In this document: piece by piece, positions 7,828 to 32,594 of the stretch
Layout of the letters: each line of letters begins with the position of its first letter
Position numbering within the stretch: position 1 is the stretch's first letter
Assembly: GCA_016792935.1 (NCBI GenBank)
Contig: JAEUJS010000152.1
Coordinates: 1 to 42,052 of the forward strand
Source of the DNA: Archangium sp.
GTDB lineage: Bacteria; Myxococcota; Myxococcia; Myxococcales; Myxococcaceae
Direction of reading: 5' to 3'
Length of the DNA: 42,052 nt
The notes under the pieces: generated by a model
Seen by the model: only the letters and a program-made list of their open reading frames with translations
Database searches by the model: none
What the model was told of the DNA's origin: nothing
Position numbers and translations under genes: made by a program

Positions 7828-7900
<73 letters not shown>

Positions 7901-24387: not shown

Positions 24388-24426
24388 GCCCCTCTGCGCA
24401 CCACGCGCGGAGGGGCTTTGTGTTTT
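24388..24426 (+). terminator. Rho-independent terminator after the first GIDE gene
   Basis: A 12-bp stem, GCCCCTCTGCGC with GCGCGGAGGGGC (one G-U pair) and a five-base loop, is followed by TTTGTGTTTT. Confidence 0.88.
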
Positions 24427-24464
24427 GGGTGAATCGTTCTGCGTCAGTGTTCGTTTGGAGCGCG

Positions 24465-25100
24465 ATGCGGCTCGCGTCGATCCTCGCACTGGTTTCGCTC
24501 TCGGCCGTCGCGCAGGAAGTCCGCGTGACCGACGGAACGCCGCTCGTGGAGCCGCCGCCCCGCTTCGGCATCGTGGCGAACATGGGCGTGGAGACGGTGT
24601 TTCCCGTCGAAGGCGGCGAGTCGCTGCAGATCGGCTTGAGGACGGGCGTCGGGATGCGGTTCGGGCTCCAGGCAGCGGAAGGCCAAGGGATGGCGACGTT
24701 GCCGGCCGTCGCGTTGATGGGTGGCTTCGTCGGTCAGTCGAGTCCCATCGGCTTCGTGCCCGGAGCGTTCGTCGAGGCGCGCGTCGAGCTGGCGGTGGTC
24801 TCTCCGCTCAAGAAGTACCTGCTGCAGCCAGCGGCGGTCGTGTACGCGATGGGTGGGATGACGTGGCGTGAGCGCACCGTCGTTCCGCACTTCGGGCTCG
24901 GTGTCGGGTGGGGCGTGTTGTTCTTCCCCGACGTCGATACGCGGCGCGCGTTGAGTGGGTGGAAGTTCAACAACGAGGCAGCGGCGTTCGTGGCGTTGAT
25001 CGCTGCGCTCGTGGCCGCAGGACGGTTGGAAGTTCGGTACGCGCCGGCGACTGGGATGATTCCTGCGACGAGCACGGCGATGATCGGCTTTGGAATCTAG
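24465..25100 (+). CDS. Probable outer-membrane beta-barrel protein
   Basis: The ATG at 24465 has GGAG six bases upstream; the frame could start earlier at 24420 but only within the terminator. The 211-residue product has a signal peptide (ending A-V-A-Q) followed by alternating hydrophobic/polar strands with Gly-rich turns (LQIGLRTGVGMRFGL, HFGLGVGWGVLFF) and ends in MIGFGI. This suggests a small barrel of eight or so strands. No specific family is recognised. It is followed by the non-coding element at 25178. Confidence 0.75.
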   Translation: MRLASILALVSLSAVAQEVRVTDGTPLVEPPPRFGIVANMGVETVFPVEGGESLQIGLRTGVGMRFGLQAAEGQGMATLPAVALMGGFVGQSSPIGFVPGAFVEARVELAVVSPLKKYLLQPAAVVYAMGGMTWRERTVVPHFGLGVGWGVLFFPDVDTRRALSGWKFNNEAAAFVALIAALVAAGRLEVRYAPATGMIPATSTAMIGFGI

Positions 25101-25113
25101 ACCAGTGTATGAA

Positions 25114-25160
25114 TTTGGCTGTTACGTTACTCTGAGAATCACGACGCATCAGCAGCCAAA
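25114..25160. repeat. Inverted repeat upstream of intergenic element A
   Basis: TTTGGCTG (25114-25121) and CAGCCAAA (25153-25160) form a perfect 8-bp stem around a 31-base loop, directly after the barrel gene. It may be a weak terminator without a T-run or the first part of the structured region that continues at 25178. Confidence 0.4.
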
Positions 25161-25177
25161 GGGTCGAAGTGGGTGTG

Positions 25178-25397
25178 GATTTGGGCCGTGCCGAACGGCG
25201 CACGAGCCTCTCGACTACGAGCGAATTTCACTCAGTTGACCAGTGAGTGGATCTGGTCGTCCTGACGACCAAATTCAGACAATGGTCGAGCTTGCGTCGA
25301 AGATTGAGCGAATTGAGCGCCAAATCGGTCGAGGTCGAGGGGCTCGACCGCCGTTTGGCAGAGCGACTGAGACCCAAACCCCACTTCGACCCTCAGG
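25178..25397 (+). repeat. Intergenic element A (dispersed repeat or structured RNA)
   Basis: This region matches 31411-31627 along its length. Over the first hundred bases I count about 17 differences and one single-base gap, including 18 identical bases (TCAGTTGACCAGTGAGTG) and 12 more (CCTGACGACCAA). Inside it TGGTCGTC-CT-GACGACCA (25254-25271) is a perfect inverted repeat and TCACT/AGTGA flank the conserved block. A GTG at 25243 opens a 65-codon frame similar to one in element B, but single-base gaps on both sides of the shared part argue against a protein. It sits between two convergent genes. Confidence 0.65.
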
Positions 25398-25405
25398 CTG
25401 TTGGT

Positions 25406-25430
25406 GCCTCGTGTCGACGAGGCGTTTGTT
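25406..25430 (+). terminator. Possible terminator at the end of element A
   Basis: GCCTCGT-GTCG-ACGAGGC (25406-25423) is a perfect 7-bp stem with a tetraloop followed by GTTTGTT. It would end a plus-strand transcript through element A. The T-run is weak. The remaining bases to 25485 show nothing further. Confidence 0.4.
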
Positions 25431-25485
25431 CGCGCGCTGATGTTTGGTCGCGACTCGACTCGACGCAGCACTGGCGTTCCTTCGT

Positions 25486-27975
25486 TCAGCGGACGCAGCT
25501 GATGTTCGCGCTCGTGCTCGCGGGGCTGAGGATCGCGTTGCTGTCGAAGTTGCACGTCGCGAAGTTGAGCCGCACGCGACCGACACCACCACCGCCACCA
25601 CCACCTGCGGGGTTCGTGCAGTTGTTCCCGACCGTGCCGTTCCCTGCTCCGCCGGAGCTCGCTGCGCCGTCACCACCGTTGCCGCCGCAACCGCCGCCTG
25701 TGATGCACACCGCGCGCACGCTGCTGACTTGCCCGTTCTGTCCCGTCGCACCGTTGACCGAACTTCCGCTCGCTTCTCCTCCTGCGCCACCATTGGCTGC
25801 GAGCACGGCGATGGCGTTCATGGTGAGCGTGGTGCCCTCGAGGAGAATCGCGCCGCCCGAGCCGCCGCCACCGCCGCCGACGCGGTCGCCGTTGTCGCCA
25901 CCTTCGCCGCCCTGCCCGTTGGCCTGCACGCTGCCTCCGGTGTTGAAGGTCATCGCGCCGCCCGCGGAGATCTGCACCGCGCCGCCAGGGCGTCCGCCGG
26001 CACCGCCATTCGAACCAGAGCGACCGCCATTTCCTCCGCGGCAACCACCGCGCAGGGGCGTCAGCGTGACGTTGGTGTTCATCACCACGCCCGCATCACC
26101 ACGCGCCCCGCCGTTTTCTCCGTCAGCACCGCGGCCTCCGTTCGAGCCGAACGCGCCACCGCCACCACCGCCCGCGGTCTCAGGTGAACCGCTCGCCGCA
26201 CCATCACCACCGCGCTCCGCCGGCAGGCAGCCCAGGTTGGCGCCAGCGCCCGCATTCGTCGCGTCCGTTGACACACTCACGGTGGAGTTGAGCGTGACAG
26301 CCCCGCGCACCGCGACGATGAGCGGGCGCGCACCGACGGCGCGGAACGTCGTGTTGACGGTGAGCGCGTCGGCGAAGATCAGCACTGCTCCATTGGCGAG
26401 AATGCGTGTCGCCGGCGGCTGCGGGCCCGTCATGCACGTCGTCCAATCGGTGCCGCCATCGCCCGTCTGGGTGTTCATGGTGGTCGGACAGTTGATGGTC
26501 ACCATGCCCATCGTCGCGGGGAGATCAGGCTCGGTGAAGTTGCTCGGCACGTACGTGAAGATCGTCTGCGCCGCACAACCACCGTCGGGCACGCACGCGC
26601 CGCCGGTGCACGCGCCGGTGCGCACGGAGTACTGACACGTCCCGCCGACGTCGCAGCCGTTGTTCATGAAGCACTCACCCGGCGGCGTGCACATCGTTCG
26701 CACGCCAGCGACGCAGCCACCATCGCCGTTGCACGAATCACCGACGGTGCAGTTGTCGTTGTCGGTGCACCCGAGCGTGCCCATCGGGAGCGGCGTGTAG
26801 CTGCACGGTCCACCATCGGTCTCGACACACGTGCCCGTCGGCATGAAGCAACCGCCTGCTGGAGGCGCGTTGCACATCTTCGGCACCGCTCCGCAGCCAC
26901 CGTCGGCAGCGCAGGAGTTCACCGTGCAGAACAAGCCGTCTTCGCACGAGTTGCTCATGCTCACCGGGTACACGCAGCCACCTGCGTCGACCGAACACGT
27001 GCCGTTGCTCGAGAAGCACGCGCTGGGAGCCATGTTGCAGGTCAGCACCGCGCCCGCTCCGCAGAAGTTGCCGCTGCACTGGTCGTTGCCGGTGCAGGGG
27101 TCCCCATCGCTGCACATCGTGCCGTTGGGACAATCGATGTTGTCTGCGCAGTCGGTGAAACTGTCGCCGTCGTTGTCGACACCGTCTGCGCAGAGGCCGA
27201 CTTCGGTGGGCGCCTGACACATCATGTTCATGCACGTACCGCTCGTCCCGCACGTCGCTCCGGCGCAATCCACGTCAGCGCAATCGGTCGTGCCGTCGAA
27301 GTCGTTGTCGAGCGTGTCGTTGCAGTTCACTTCCTTGCAGGCGTTCATCACGCAGCGATTTCCCGCGCCGACGCGGCACTGCATCTGGTCGCACGCCATG
27401 TCGGCGCAATCGATGGCGCTGTTGCAGTTGTCGTCGAGCTGATTGCCGCACTGCTCGGCTGCGTTGGGCCGAATCGCCGCATTGTCGTCATCGCAGTCGA
27501 CGTCGGAGGTGAAGCCGTCACCGTCCATGTCGACGCCACCATCTCCGCCACCGCCGCCCGTGCCGCCGCCAGTGCCGCCGCCGCCGCCCGTGCCGCCGTC
27601 GTTCTGATTCTGCGTGGAGACGATCTTCAGCGTGAGCTTCGCTTCGGGCGTCGGCGTGCCGAACTGGGTGGGGAGCGCCTCACTCTCTTCCTGCGGCGCG
27701 GTGCGCGTGGTGCAGGTCTCGTCGGAGAAGCCGAGCGCCTGCACCTCGACGGCGTTCGCTTCTCCGCGCTGCGCGATGCCGAAGACGAGGCGTGATTTTC
27801 CGGCGACGGGCACCGGCATCGACTCGCGATCGGTCGAGCCGCGCGCGATGAGCTTCACGCACGTGCTCTTGACGCCCGGTTCGAACTCGACCACGACTCT
27901 CAAGCTGCCCGTCGAAGAGTTGGGCGAGCAGCTGATCAACGCAACTCCGGTGGCAACCACGAGCAGTCGTCGCAT
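25486..27975 (-). CDS. Gly-rich, cysteine-rich MopE-type surface lipoprotein
   Basis: The 829-residue protein starts at ATG 27975 with lipobox L-I-S-C16. A beta domain (about 20-110) leads to a poly-Gly/Thr spacer and a MopE-type repeat (VDMDGDGFTSDVDCDDD, then CGNQLDDNCNSAIDC). Further repeats such as CNDTLDNDFDGTTDC and CADGVDNDGDSFTDC follow, and then a disintegrin-like cysteine-rich array (about 270-470). The last 300 residues are dominated by Gly-Gly-x triplets (AFGSNGGRGADGENGG, GGNGGRSGSNGGAGG) between short hydrophobic strands, a pattern compatible with polyglycine-II or beta-helix packing. It lacks the Arg-rich MYXO-CTERM tail and ends ANISCVR. The open frame extends upstream to 28512 only as antisense to the next gene. 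Surface adhesion or matrix role is inference. Confidence 0.87.
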   Translation of the reverse strand: MRRLLVVATGVALISCSPNSSTGSLRVVVEFEPGVKSTCVKLIARGSTDRESMPVPVAGKSRLVFGIAQRGEANAVEVQALGFSDETCTTRTAPQEESEALPTQFGTPTPEAKLTLKIVSTQNQNDGGTGGGGGTGGGTGGGGGDGGVDMDGDGFTSDVDCDDDNAAIRPNAAEQCGNQLDDNCNSAIDCADMACDQMQCRVGAGNRCVMNACKEVNCNDTLDNDFDGTTDCADVDCAGATCGTSGTCMNMMCQAPTEVGLCADGVDNDGDSFTDCADNIDCPNGTMCSDGDPCTGNDQCSGNFCGAGAVLTCNMAPSACFSSNGTCSVDAGGCVYPVSMSNSCEDGLFCTVNSCAADGGCGAVPKMCNAPPAGGCFMPTGTCVETDGGPCSYTPLPMGTLGCTDNDNCTVGDSCNGDGGCVAGVRTMCTPPGECFMNNGCDVGGTCQYSVRTGACTGGACVPDGGCAAQTIFTYVPSNFTEPDLPATMGMVTINCPTTMNTQTGDGGTDWTTCMTGPQPPATRILANGAVLIFADALTVNTTFRAVGARPLIVAVRGAVTLNSTVSVSTDATNAGAGANLGCLPAERGGDGAASGSPETAGGGGGGAFGSNGGRGADGENGGARGDAGVVMNTNVTLTPLRGGCRGGNGGRSGSNGGAGGRPGGAVQISAGGAMTFNTGGSVQANGQGGEGGDNGDRVGGGGGGSGGAILLEGTTLTMNAIAVLAANGGAGGEASGSSVNGATGQNGQVSSVRAVCITGGGCGGNGGDGAASSGGAGNGTVGNNCTNPAGGGGGGGVGRVRLNFATCNFDSNAILSPASTSANISCVR

Positions 27976-28009
27976 CGGCCGGCAGCCTATTCGGAAACGA
28001 GGAGAACGC

Positions 28010-29074
28010 ATGCGGACCAGAGTGCTGATCAGCGCGTGCCTGATCGCTGCGTGTTCTCCACCAATGCCGATGCTCGACGGCGGCACCGAAGTCGATGCAG
28101 GTCGTGACGCCTCGGTCGCGTTCGACGCGGGGTCCACGGATGCGGGGACCGACGCAGGTGTTGACGCGGGTGTCGATGCGGGACGACCGGACGCGGGCAT
28201 CGACGCTGGCTTCGACGCAGGCCCTCCGCAAGACGCGGGCTTCTTCACGCAGCTCGACGCAGGTCCGGGCGACTTCAGCGCGGTGTGGACCAACGGCAGC
28301 GGCGCGTGGATCGTCGGCCTGGATGGACTGATTCTCCACCGTCGCCCGGGCAGCGCAGCCTGGACGCGCGTGGACGCGGGCACGAACGATCTCCTGCTGA
28401 CGCTCACGGTCGATGGACTGGGCCGCGTACACGCAGGAGGCCGCACCAGCTCGGATCTCGGCGTGACGTTGATGAGCGCCGACGGCGGAGAGCACTTCGT
28501 CGAGCAACGCAACGGTCTCCCCTTCGCCGTGAACTCGCTCGCGTCGGCTGGAGATCTCGTCTTCGCGGCAGCCGATGTGGTGCTCTTCCTCGACGGCGGC
28601 GCGTGGGATCGCTCGATGCCCCAGCCTTCGAGTCCGTTTCCCGGCTCGCTGACCGCGCGCGGCGCTGAGGTCTGGGCGACCGGTTTCGCGGTGGTGCATC
28701 ACTTCATCGACGGCGGCTGGCGCGAGGAGATGTCAGGCGGAGAGCTCGGCATGGATGTCTGCACCTCGATCGCCGAACGCACGCTCGTCTCGGAGCACGG
28801 CTTCGTGGCGATGGCCAGCGTGACGGGTCCGTGGAGTCCGTGGCCCGTCTTCATCGGCAACGAGCCGGTCGGTTGTGACTACGCGCCTGATGGCACGTTG
28901 TGGATTGCGGGCAATCGGTTTCCGGGCACGAGCATCGAAGGCATCGTGTTGCGATCGCGCGGCGGAGTGACGACCGAGTGGATCCTCCCTCCATTGCGCG
29001 CGATCTCTGTGAGCAACGATGAGGTGTTGATCATCGGATCGGATGCGTACGTTGGGCGCTTGATTCAGCCCTGA
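28010..29074 (+). CDS. Lipoprotein with Asp-Ala-Gly linker and propeller-like domain
   Basis: The ATG at 28010 has GAGGAG six bases upstream. The 354-residue product has lipobox L-I-A-A-C15 and then about 50 residues of Asp-Ala-Gly repeats (DAGTDAGVDAGVDAG and similar), a flexible acidic spacer. The rest is repeated beta units with Trp/Gly signatures (AVWTNGSGAWIVGLDGLILH, DGTLWIAGNRF), similar to photosystem-stability-factor (Ycf48/BNR-like) propellers. No enzymatic motif is evident. It is divergent from the Gly-rich lipoprotein with only 34 bases between start codons, so the two probably share a regulatory region. Confidence 0.85.
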   Translation: MRTRVLISACLIAACSPPMPMLDGGTEVDAGRDASVAFDAGSTDAGTDAGVDAGVDAGRPDAGIDAGFDAGPPQDAGFFTQLDAGPGDFSAVWTNGSGAWIVGLDGLILHRRPGSAAWTRVDAGTNDLLLTLTVDGLGRVHAGGRTSSDLGVTLMSADGGEHFVEQRNGLPFAVNSLASAGDLVFAAADVVLFLDGGAWDRSMPQPSSPFPGSLTARGAEVWATGFAVVHHFIDGGWREEMSGGELGMDVCTSIAERTLVSEHGFVAMASVTGPWSPWPVFIGNEPVGCDYAPDGTLWIAGNRFPGTSIEGIVLRSRGGVTTEWILPPLRAISVSNDEVLIIGSDAYVGRLIQP

Positions 29075-29095
29075 CGCCGCTATGGTCCCGGCTCC

Positions 29096-31345
29096 GTGGC
29101 GCTTCCGAAAATCGACGAGCTGATCAAGCAGTGGAAGAAGTCCCATTCCGATGCGTTGCGCGCGCTGATTCTCGCGCTCGACGAAGCGAAGCCGCTGGCC
29201 GAGCTGCAGGGCCTCGAGACGCTCAAGATCGCGCAGGTGGTCGAGCGCCTCGAGCCGTTTGCGAAGGCTGGGCGCGCGAATGATCCACGGCTCACGCACG
29301 CGCTCGAGCCGATTCTCGCGAACGTCACGTGGAGTTCGGATGGCAGCAAGCCGGCGTGGCGCGCCATCTTCGCCGCGGTGACGGCGTCGGGCGACGCGCG
29401 CTTTCGCGAGCTCAACCCCCAGTTCAAGGTGCGCCCGCTGATGCAGGAATGGCTGCTCAGCGCGTGGAAGAAGACCATCGCCGAGCTGCCCGAGAAGACG
29501 CTCCCGCGCGACGACGACGCGAAGTGGAAGGCGGCGCTCGACGCGTTGCCGAAGAAGAAGGCGGCGCCGGGCGCGAAGGACGAAGCCGCGCTGCTCGCCG
29601 ACGTGTTCGCGCGACCGGACGATGATGGTCCGCGGCTCGTCTACGCCGACTTTCTGCAAGAGCGCGGTGACCCGCGCGGAGAGTTCATCACCCTGCAGTG
29701 CGGTGCTCGCGACGAGAAGCGGGAGAAGGCGTTGCTCAAGCAGCACGAGAAGAAATGGTTGGGCGCGCTGGCCCCGGTGTTGTCGAAGGGCGTGGAATTT
29801 CGTCGCGGCTTCCCGAGCAAAGGCCGCGTGAACTTCAGGGCGCAGACCGACGCCGAGAAATACGGAGTGCTCCCGGAATGGGCGACGTTCGAAGAGCTGG
29901 AATGGATCAACGCGGCCGCTTCGAGCGATCAACGAAGATGGACGCGCTTCATCGGGCCGAACTTCCGCAACTTGAAGGTCGCGCGTAGCCCGCACTTCAC
30001 CACGATGCTCGACGCGAAGACGCCGTGGGCCGTCGAATACCTCGCCGTCATCGTCAGTGAGCCCGACGACTTGAAGCGGTTCGCTTCCGTGGCGAAGACG
30101 CTGTTCCCGAAGCTGAGGACGCTCCGGATCTTGTGGGGCCTGAACCCGGGGTGGCTGACCGGCGTCCCCTCGCTCGGAAACGTCACGCGTCTCGAGCTCG
30201 GCGGGAGCTCGGACGTCGGGCCGATGCTCGGCCCCGTGTCGGCGACCGACGTGAAGGAGTTGTGGTTCGAGGACGTGCTGCGTTTCTCGCGTGACGCGAG
30301 CGGCAAGTTTTCGGTGCTCGACTTCCACATCGACGAAGAGCGCACCGACCAGCGGTACTTTCTCGGTCACGCGCTGCGTTTGCCGCACGGCTACATCACC
30401 TCGTTCACGTTCGGTGGCGCGCGCAAACCAGACAACCCGAAGGTCGAGGAGACGCTGCGCGAGCGGGTGCGTGCGAAGGATGGAGCCGACCCCTTCGCGC
30501 CGAAGAAGGTGGGAGAGCTGCCCGAGATCAAGGGCTGGCCACCCATGACGTGGCTCGACGGAACGCACCTGTTGATCTCGATGCAGGGCGTGGCGTTGGT
30601 GGTGGACGCGCCGAAACAACGCGTGGTGCGCGAGTTCCCGATCGATCGCCTGCTGGCGGTGCGTCGCTACGAACAGGGCAAGTCGTTCCTCGGCCTGCAG
30701 AACAACGCCATTGTCTGTGTCGACGCGGACACGGGCACGACGAAGTTCGAAGTCACGACGCCGTGGCACAGCAGCTACCGGCTCAACGTGTCGGCCGATG
30801 GAAAGCGTGCGTCGAGCGCGAAGGGCGTGCTGATCGATCTCGAGGCGAAACAGCTGGTGCCTCCTCCGCGCGGAGCGAGAGAGGCGAGCTACCGCGCGCT
30901 CGACGACTCGTTCTGGTTGCAGTGGGTGCCCGCGAAGGAACAGGGCAAGCCGCAGCCGTACATCTTGCGTCGACCCGGTGTGCGCGAGTCCGTCGACCTC
31001 GAGCGCGGTCAAGGCTTCGAAGGTCCGCTCGAGGCGGGCGGTGGGCTCATCGCGCGCACGAGCGAAGAGCTGCTGCGGTGGGATCGCACGACGGGCGCCG
31101 TCACGCACTCGGTGAAGATGAAGAACGAGCTGCGGCCTCCAGTGCATCTGCACGCGACGGAAGACGGCTCGCGGCTGGCCGTCGCGGAGACCCCGAAACG
31201 CGCGCTGGTGCTCGATGCGACCGACTTGAAGGTGCTCGCCGCGTTCGACGTGGACACGAACCTCGGCGGGTTGGCGCTGTCTCCGGATGGGAAGAAGTTG
31301 GCGGCGATCGTCGGAGCAGCATTGCGCGTGTTCACCATTGTCTGA
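29096..31345 (+). CDS. TIGR02996-domain protein with propeller C-terminus
   Basis: The 749-residue protein starts at GTG 29096; a TATGGT box 16 bases upstream is a possible -10 element. A helical N-terminal region (1-150) is followed by the TIGR02996 signature DEAALLADVFARPDDDGPRLVYADFLQERGDPRGEF (split here as residues 162-197), known mainly from planctomycetes and myxobacteria. A leucine-rich-repeat-like section follows (LRTLRILWGL, VTRLELGGSS, VKELWFEDVL). From about 470 the sequence looks like a WD40/quinoprotein propeller (LALSPDGKKLAAIVGAALRV near the end). There is no signal peptide, so it is probably cytosolic. Function is unknown; such combinations act as protein-interaction scaffolds. 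Confidence 0.85.
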   Translation: MALPKIDELIKQWKKSHSDALRALILALDEAKPLAELQGLETLKIAQVVERLEPFAKAGRANDPRLTHALEPILANVTWSSDGSKPAWRAIFAAVTASGDARFRELNPQFKVRPLMQEWLLSAWKKTIAELPEKTLPRDDDAKWKAALDALPKKKAAPGAKDEAALLADVFARPDDDGPRLVYADFLQERGDPRGEFITLQCGARDEKREKALLKQHEKKWLGALAPVLSKGVEFRRGFPSKGRVNFRAQTDAEKYGVLPEWATFEELEWINAAASSDQRRWTRFIGPNFRNLKVARSPHFTTMLDAKTPWAVEYLAVIVSEPDDLKRFASVAKTLFPKLRTLRILWGLNPGWLTGVPSLGNVTRLELGGSSDVGPMLGPVSATDVKELWFEDVLRFSRDASGKFSVLDFHIDEERTDQRYFLGHALRLPHGYITSFTFGGARKPDNPKVEETLRERVRAKDGADPFAPKKVGELPEIKGWPPMTWLDGTHLLISMQGVALVVDAPKQRVVREFPIDRLLAVRRYEQGKSFLGLQNNAIVCVDADTGTTKFEVTTPWHSSYRLNVSADGKRASSAKGVLIDLEAKQLVPPPRGAREASYRALDDSFWLQWVPAKEQGKPQPYILRRPGVRESVDLERGQGFEGPLEAGGGLIARTSEELLRWDRTTGAVTHSVKMKNELRPPVHLHATEDGSRLAVAETPKRALVLDATDLKVLAAFDVDTNLGGLALSPDGKKLAAIVGAALRVFTIV

Positions 31346-31410
31346 AATTGGTCGTTTCGTCCGTCGGTGCAACTGCAACCGCAGCTTGCTTTGGGGTGGT
31401 GGTGTGGTCA

Positions 31411-31627
31411 GATTTGGGTCGTGCCAAAAGGCAACGAGCCCCTGAACCACGAGCGAATCTTGTTCAGTTGACCAGTGAGTGAATCTGGCTGCCCTGACGA
31501 CCAATTTCACTCAGTGGTTGACCCTGCATCGAAGACCGCTTTCATTGCGCGCCCTTTTCGCTCGAGGACAGGGGCTCGCGCGCTTTTCGGCACGGTGAAC
31601 GAGACCAGTCGCGCCTTCGACCTCAGC
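31411..31627 (+). repeat. Intergenic element B (dispersed repeat or structured RNA)
   Basis: This is the second copy of the element at 25178-25397, with the same order of conserved blocks (GATTTGGG, CGTGCC, ACGAGCGAAT, TCAGTTGACCAGTGAGTG, CCTGACGACCAA, GGGGCTCG, GAGACC, CTTCGACC). It occupies almost the whole gap between the TIGR02996 gene and menB and stops about 25 bases before the menB start, so it could form the menB leader. A GTG at 31475 opens a frame resembling that of element A, but the frames fall out of register at both ends. The rest of the 31346-31652 gap shows nothing else. Confidence 0.65.
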
Positions 31628-31652
31628 GCAGTGTCGGCGCACGAAAGACTGT

Positions 31653-32594
31653 ATGAGCGCGGACATGGCTGCTGCGAAGAAGACGAAGAAAACGACTAAA
31701 AGCTGCTCGGCGCTCTTCGATCCGAAGCGATGGCGCGAAGTCCCGGGCTTCGACTTCACCGACATCACGTTCCACCGCGCGGTCGATCAAGGCACGGTGC
31801 GCATCGCGTTCAACCGACCCGAAGTGCGCAACGCGTTCCGCCCGCGCACCGTCGACGAGTTGTTCCGCGCGCTCGAAGCCACGCGCTTCATGACCGACGT
31901 CGGCGTGGTGCTGCTCACTGGAAATGGGCCGTCACCGAAAGACGGCGGCTGGGCGTTCTGCAGCGGCGGCGATCAACGCATTCGCGGCAAAGACGGCTAC
32001 CAGTACGGCAAGGAAGACAAACACCTCGATCCCGCGGGGCTGGGTCGCCTGCACATTCTCGAGGTGCAGCGGCAGATTCGGTTTCTCCCCAAGGCCGTCA
32101 TCGCGGTGGTGCCGGGCTGGGCCGTCGGCGGCGGGCACTCACTGCACGTCGTCTGCGACCTGACCATCGCGTCGAAGGAGCACGCCCTCTTCAAGCAGAC
32201 CGACGCCGACGTCGCGTCGTTCGATTCGGGCTACGGCTCCGCGTTGCTCGCGCGGCAAGTCGGCCAGAAGAAGGCCCGTGAGATTTTCTTCGTCGGCGCG
32301 AATCATTCCGCCGACGCCGCGGCCGCGATGGGCATGGTGAACGCCGTCGTGCCGCACGCGAAACTCGAGAGCTTCGCGCTCGATTGGGCCGCGGAGATCA
32401 ACACCAAGTCGCCGACCGCGATCAAAATGCTCAAGTACGGCATGAACCTTCCGGACGACGGAATGGTCGGTCAGCAGCTCTTCGCCGGAGAGGCCACGCG
32501 CCTCGCCTACGGCACTGACGAAGCGACCGAAGGACGTGGCGCTTTCGTTGAAAAACGTCGCCGAAATTTCTCGAAGTTTCCGTGGTCGTACTGA
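31653..32594 (+). CDS. menB: 1,4-dihydroxy-2-naphthoyl-CoA synthase (menaquinone synthesis)
   Basis: MenB cyclises o-succinylbenzoyl-CoA in menaquinone synthesis. The 313-residue crotonase-fold protein shows family motifs: GGWAFCSGGDQRIRG, VPGWAVGGGHSLHVVCDLTI and the MenB-specific TDADVASFDSGYGSALLARQ followed by KKAREIFFVG. It ends KFPWSY, as MenB proteins usually do. The length is slightly above the usual 270-300 because of a Lys-rich N-terminal extension. ATG at 31653 is used; ATG at 31665 is equally possible and neither has a strong ribosome site. No other men genes are near. It is preceded by intergenic element B and followed by a terminator. Confidence 0.95.
   Translation: MSADMAAAKKTKKTTKSCSALFDPKRWREVPGFDFTDITFHRAVDQGTVRIAFNRPEVRNAFRPRTVDELFRALEATRFMTDVGVVLLTGNGPSPKDGGWAFCSGGDQRIRGKDGYQYGKEDKHLDPAGLGRLHILEVQRQIRFLPKAVIAVVPGWAVGGGHSLHVVCDLTIASKEHALFKQTDADVASFDSGYGSALLARQVGQKKAREIFFVGANHSADAAAAMGMVNAVVPHAKLESFALDWAAEINTKSPTAIKMLKYGMNLPDDGMVGQQLFAGEATRLAYGTDEATEGRGAFVEKRRRNFSKFPWSY

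Follow-up and report, generated by a model that had tools for sequence, protein, structure and literature searches.

The window analyzed here is a 42,052-nucleotide contig of Archangium sp. that carries two homologous intergenic stretches, element A (25100..25413, + strand) and element B (31333..31637, + strand). A sequence-only reading had recognized this homology, which we confirmed (74% identity over query positions 9 to 227 of 231, E = 1.9e-28; 77% without gaps over 120 bases; the shared 18-base block is TCAGTTGACCAGTGAGTG). That reading took the element to be about 220 bp long, and its coordinates (25178-25397 and 31411-31627) proved too short. The left end of A is sharp at 25100, where the alignments of many genome copies begin; the consensus matches A at 25100-25402, with the outer inverted arm extending to 25413, and matches B at 31334-31637 (E = 3.9e-61). 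Other genome copies place the right ends near 25402-25413 in A and near 31626-31637 in B. The first base of A doubles as the third base of the TAG that closes the upstream gene (24420-25100). At B, the TGA stop (31343..31345, + strand) of the upstream gene (29096-31345) lies within the left motif of the element. As the sequence-only reading had proposed, B forms the upstream region of menB (31653..32594, + strand; 1,4-dihydroxy-2-naphthoyl-CoA synthase; NF006186, E = 3e-166; TIGR01929, E = 1e-116), a neighbor that lies outside the element, with its ATG 15 to 16 nt beyond the end of B. In other genomes, menB has its best matches in Archangium, Myxococcus, and Corallococcus, which marks the host as a myxobacterium. 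Two paralogs with a GIDE domain (PF12483; 22666-24363 and 32774-34027; 86% identical over 300 nt of DNA) flank A and B. An origin of A and B in one segmental duplication was rejected because the paralogs are offset by 10117 nt and the elements by 6232 nt.

The anatomy of the element, about 305 bp long, is constant in an alignment of 35 copies. It opens with a 23-bp left motif, GACCAGTGTCTGAATTTGGCCGT (also written as GACSANTGNSTGAANTTGGYYGT), followed by a variable linker of 25 to 30 nt, a left arm with the family modules GGTCGAAGTGG, GTGCCGAACGGC, GAGCCCCTC, and CGAGCGAA, a central palindrome of ∼50 bp in which two further motif copies stand face to face, and a right arm that complements the left one. 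Copies begin with GACCAGTG and end with CCACTTCGACCCCAANGCAGTT, then GTCAGCGC in some. The left arm begins about 40 to 50 nt inside the left end, and the extreme ends are not inverted copies of each other. In A, the left motif GACCAGTGTATGAATTTGGCTGT occupies 25100..25122 (+ strand). The left inverted arm (25140..25235, + strand), with modules GGTCGAAGTGG, GTGCCGAACGGC, GAGCCTCTC, and CGAGCGAA, was delimited by inverted-repeat search, copy alignment, and fold, and the right inverted arm (25322..25413, + strand), with modules GAGGGGCTCG, GCCGTTTGGCA, CCACTTCGACC, and GGCTGTT, by inverted-repeat search and copy alignment. A motif scan located the central copies at 25238..25260 (direct, + strand) and 25265..25287 (inverted, − strand), which together make up the central palindrome. 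The outer arms, 25140-25173 and 25380-25413, are 85% complementary; the two inverted repeats noted earlier in A are thus present but understated, as nearly all of A is a single long imperfect hairpin. In B, the left motif CACCATTGTCTGAAATTGGTCGT starts at 31333 (+ strand), and the same scan found the central copies at 31470..31492 (direct, + strand) and 31497..31519 (inverted, − strand). Reduced forms also occur in the genome: contig C387 has a motif with a short hairpin, and on contig C638 a motif stands alone between convergent genes. A variant on contig C724 (locus L189, ∼479-545) has the arm module GTGCCGAAAGGC and another center, with no left motif seen.

The genome from which the window comes (8.83 Mb in 740 contigs, 81% complete) contains at least about 40 diverged copies on dozens of contigs, 68 to 86% identical to A, counted among the matches listed (the best 40 candidates of each search). 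A consensus query gave ∼30 matches over most of the copy length, with partial copies on further contigs. The 23-base motif occurs 129 times, compared with 14 occurrences of a reversed-pattern control, which corresponds to about three per element. Given these ∼40 copies and the motif excess, the likeness of A and B is not due to chance. Copies are mostly 70 to 80% identical, so either the burst was not recent or recent copies, which would drop out in assembly if identical, were lost; the age of the surviving copies, whose movement is therefore inferred, weighs against the mobile reading.

BLAST found no copy in five congeners, and the element is absent from the congener orthologs of the 3′ ends of flanking genes. 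At one locus, the sole one of its kind, both neighbors are orthologous: a ferredoxin gene and a gene for a 493-amino-acid protein enclose the element here, while the spacer reads TGA-3 nt-CTA in genome G005 and measures 36 nt in genome G003, revealing an empty site. No copy was present at 80 menB loci of other genomes (1.34 Mb), and plasmids and phages gave no match. Genome G018, from another genus of the same family, contains several related elements that have their arm module (GTGCCGAACGACGCTCGAGCCCCTCGA.../...GAGGGGCTCGAGGTCGTTCGGCA) in common with the copies described here and enclose another central palindrome (ACTGTGTA...TACACAGT), showing that the arms are more widely shared than the center. 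A 61-nt arm query against 195 Myxococcota genomes (best 4 candidates each) returned many weak G+C-rich matches; among the loci inspected, only those of G018 had a convincing paired hairpin.

Copies of the element are positioned tightly at gene ends. With gene boundaries from a codon-usage gene caller made for this analysis, 24 of 35 copies have a codirectional upstream gene, which in 22 of the 24 ends between −13 and +7 nt from the element. Among 34 classified sites, 16 are convergent, 16 same direction, and 2 divergent. Convergent copies often span from stop to stop with margins of 0 to 3 nt; this is partly explained by the short spacers that congeners, too, often have between convergent genes (2 to 9 nt in 5 of 16). 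That explanation does not cover the same-direction sites, where 15 of 16 copies start ≤7 nt from the upstream stop (3.1 expected under uniform placement, P ∼5e-6) despite up to 504 nt free on the other side. At sites with clear homologs (EF-G, ferredoxin, PilZ, and NUDIX), the protein ends are native, and the genes were therefore not simply cut short by the element; at B, however, the stop falls inside the left motif. The flanks (n = 28) show no strong consensus, with C or T at position −1 in 23 and G at position −2 in 14.

We consider it likely that A and B belong to a dispersed, noncoding, nonautonomous palindromic DNA repeat that multiplied in this lineage, most probably by transposition that an enzyme drives in trans. 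The sequence-only reading had offered a nonautonomous mobile repeat as one of two options, and the ∼40 dispersed copies, their absence from congeners, and the empty orthologous site support it; its claim that DNA rather than protein is conserved also held. The element would move as DNA, with transposition driven in trans, and the 23-bp motif, placed once at the left end and twice facing in the center, would be a putative protein-binding site used in movement, a role proposed because the sequence of the motif is kept and its pairing is not. Insertion may be directed to gene ends or tolerated only there. Transcription from a neighboring gene must leave the element as a long hairpin on the 3′ end of that mRNA, with possible side effects on mRNA decay or termination. 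More tentatively, and with doubt prevailing, these repeats may define a myxobacterial nested-palindromic class that keeps its outer arms from genus to genus but exchanges the inner palindrome, and that inserts specifically at stop codons without target duplication. We know of no small bacterial repeat for which such insertion has been described. With the element, myxobacteria gain a family of large palindromic repeats, of which our literature search found no description in this group. Its tight placement makes the family well suited to asking how small repeats come to insert where they do no harm and whether they turn into gene-end signals.

The other option of the sequence-only reading was a structured RNA family, either a cis-regulatory 3′ untranslated region element or a small RNA, with stems kept by compensatory change. 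It can draw on the very stable fold of A, a single long hairpin (DNA, −86 kcal/mol; z = −9.3), on several conserved stem modules, and on the gene-end position; the fold of B is weaker (RNA z = −3.4). However, palindromic DNA repeats fold stably even when RNA is not under selection, and when each arm was paired with its own partner or with the partner from another copy (swapped-arm permutation), the own partner brought no gain (z = −0.29, P = 0.39). The variable lower stem, which looks compensatory by eye in A, gave no signal either (z = 0.17). In the central palindrome, a half pairs less well with its own partner than with one from another copy (z = +5.2, or +4.7 when cut by alignment columns); common ancestry of copies can inflate these values, yet their sign is opposite to that expected of a selected structure. 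Of the 30 consensus pairs that RNAalifold predicted, only 2 show change on both sides, and the element has no match in Rfam 15 in gathering or E-value mode, the only gathering-level match in the window being a tRNA gene at 7828-7900. Since own-partner pairing brings no gain, it is the sequence and not the pairing that is conserved, as would be expected for protein-binding sites in a DNA element, and we regard a structured RNA as highly improbable. The comparison also illustrates that a repeat with a strong predicted fold is not necessarily an RNA. The central halves differ systematically within a copy, with GGCTG opposite GACGACC (e.g., at 25238-25287) and, in many copies, GGTCG opposite GACAGCC or GACGGCC, which accounts for their pairing worse than halves from different copies; possible readings are that a perfect palindrome is avoided or that there are two distinct end types. 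A different function, that of a bidirectional gene-end signal (a terminator, an mRNA 3′ protector, or an RNase III site) selected at stops after the repeat had become useful to the host, is compatible with a mobile origin and suits the excess of convergent over divergent sites, the tight stop adjacency on either strand, and the G018 elements, which by eye adjoin stops likewise. Against it, we saw no intrinsic-terminator T-run beside the arms, covariation is lacking, and congeners have no element at the sites examined, so the element is not essential; an insertion preference could equally produce the placement. We rate such a signal as possible but on the unlikely side.

No mobilizer of the element was found. 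Target site duplications, which the sequence-only reading had named as the mark of a miniature inverted-repeat transposable element (MITE), were not found (longest shared flank word, 3.82 versus 3.87 in permutations; P = 0.69), nor was flanking dyad symmetry (z = 0.43), and among the matches listed from this 81%-complete genome, no pair of arms or motifs encloses a transposase. REP/REPIN-type palindromes moved by a RAYT (Y1 tyrosine) transposase resemble the element in being palindromic and intergenic, with inverted motif pairs of ∼23 bp and without target duplication, but the assembled genome has no match to Y1_Tnp (PF01797), for which the same search was positive in five control genomes, and we think such an origin very unlikely. 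The GTAG- and CGTC-tagged palindromes of REP, BIME, and REPIN (PMC3733652) are likewise extragenic and form paired inverted motifs; the element is far longer than a REP of 20 to 40 bp and lacks the GTAG tag, and the CGTC within its central palindrome is not a terminal tag. A MITE of an ISAzo13-family insertion sequence (IS) was considered since contig C110 holds the genome's only full ISAzo13 transposase (PF07592, E = 8e-128), and a solo motif, GACCATTGTCTGAAATTGGTCGTC, lies directly at the left side of this IS. However, the ends of relatives read AGGGGCTGTCGCAAAATAA and alike, from which it follows that the IS on C110 begins at AGGGGAGTCATCGCC, after the motif, and its right side has only 13 of 26 matching bases; we rejected it as the parent and hold descent from this family to be highly improbable. 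The transposase itself (locus L190, C110:15800-17747, open reading frame 217-1791; NF033519, E = 3e-157) carries at its C terminus, in two stretches, an IS66 TnpA-type accessory domain (NF047593, E = 3e-15), a fusion that looks unusual. Finally, a chance local duplication remnant, the outcome suggested by two copies that share an orientation and lie 6 kb from each other, is vanishingly improbable with ∼40 copies on dozens of contigs.

The reading that we prefer, a palindromic DNA repeat moved in trans, invites comparison with known small repeats. Like bacterial MITEs (Correia/NEMIS, RUP, and ERIC/IRU), the element is noncoding and nonautonomous, has inverted repeats, and is present in many intergenic copies, and its dispersal and its filled and empty sites (∼40 copies, one empty orthologous site) are those of a MITE. 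Unlike them, it is G+C rich and lacks target site duplications and TA ends, and no autonomous IS with matching ends was found; as two defining features were sought and not found, we do not claim strict membership. The Caulobacter intergenic repeats (CIR), compared by description only, are also intergenic and palindromic, with separate stem-loops, and are only partly MITE-like; the three-motif arrangement is not mentioned for CIR in the passages of PMC2229807 consulted. According to these passages, YPAL/RU-2, the palindromic sequences of Yersinia (168 bp), are, like the element, short dispersed palindromic intergenic repeats with internal inverted repeats, without TA ends, not A+T rich, and with no mobilizer assigned (PMC2229807). 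The likeness, drawn from description, is one of behavior only, as the element is longer (305 bp) and the hosts are unrelated; YPAL has target duplications of 3 to 26 bp and dyad targets, neither of which was detected here, whereas the element has its motif three times and a center that differs between genera. We conclude that A and B represent a new, lineage-restricted family of miniature palindromic repeats, similar in behavior to YPAL/RU-2, whose noteworthy trait is strict placement behind stop codons.
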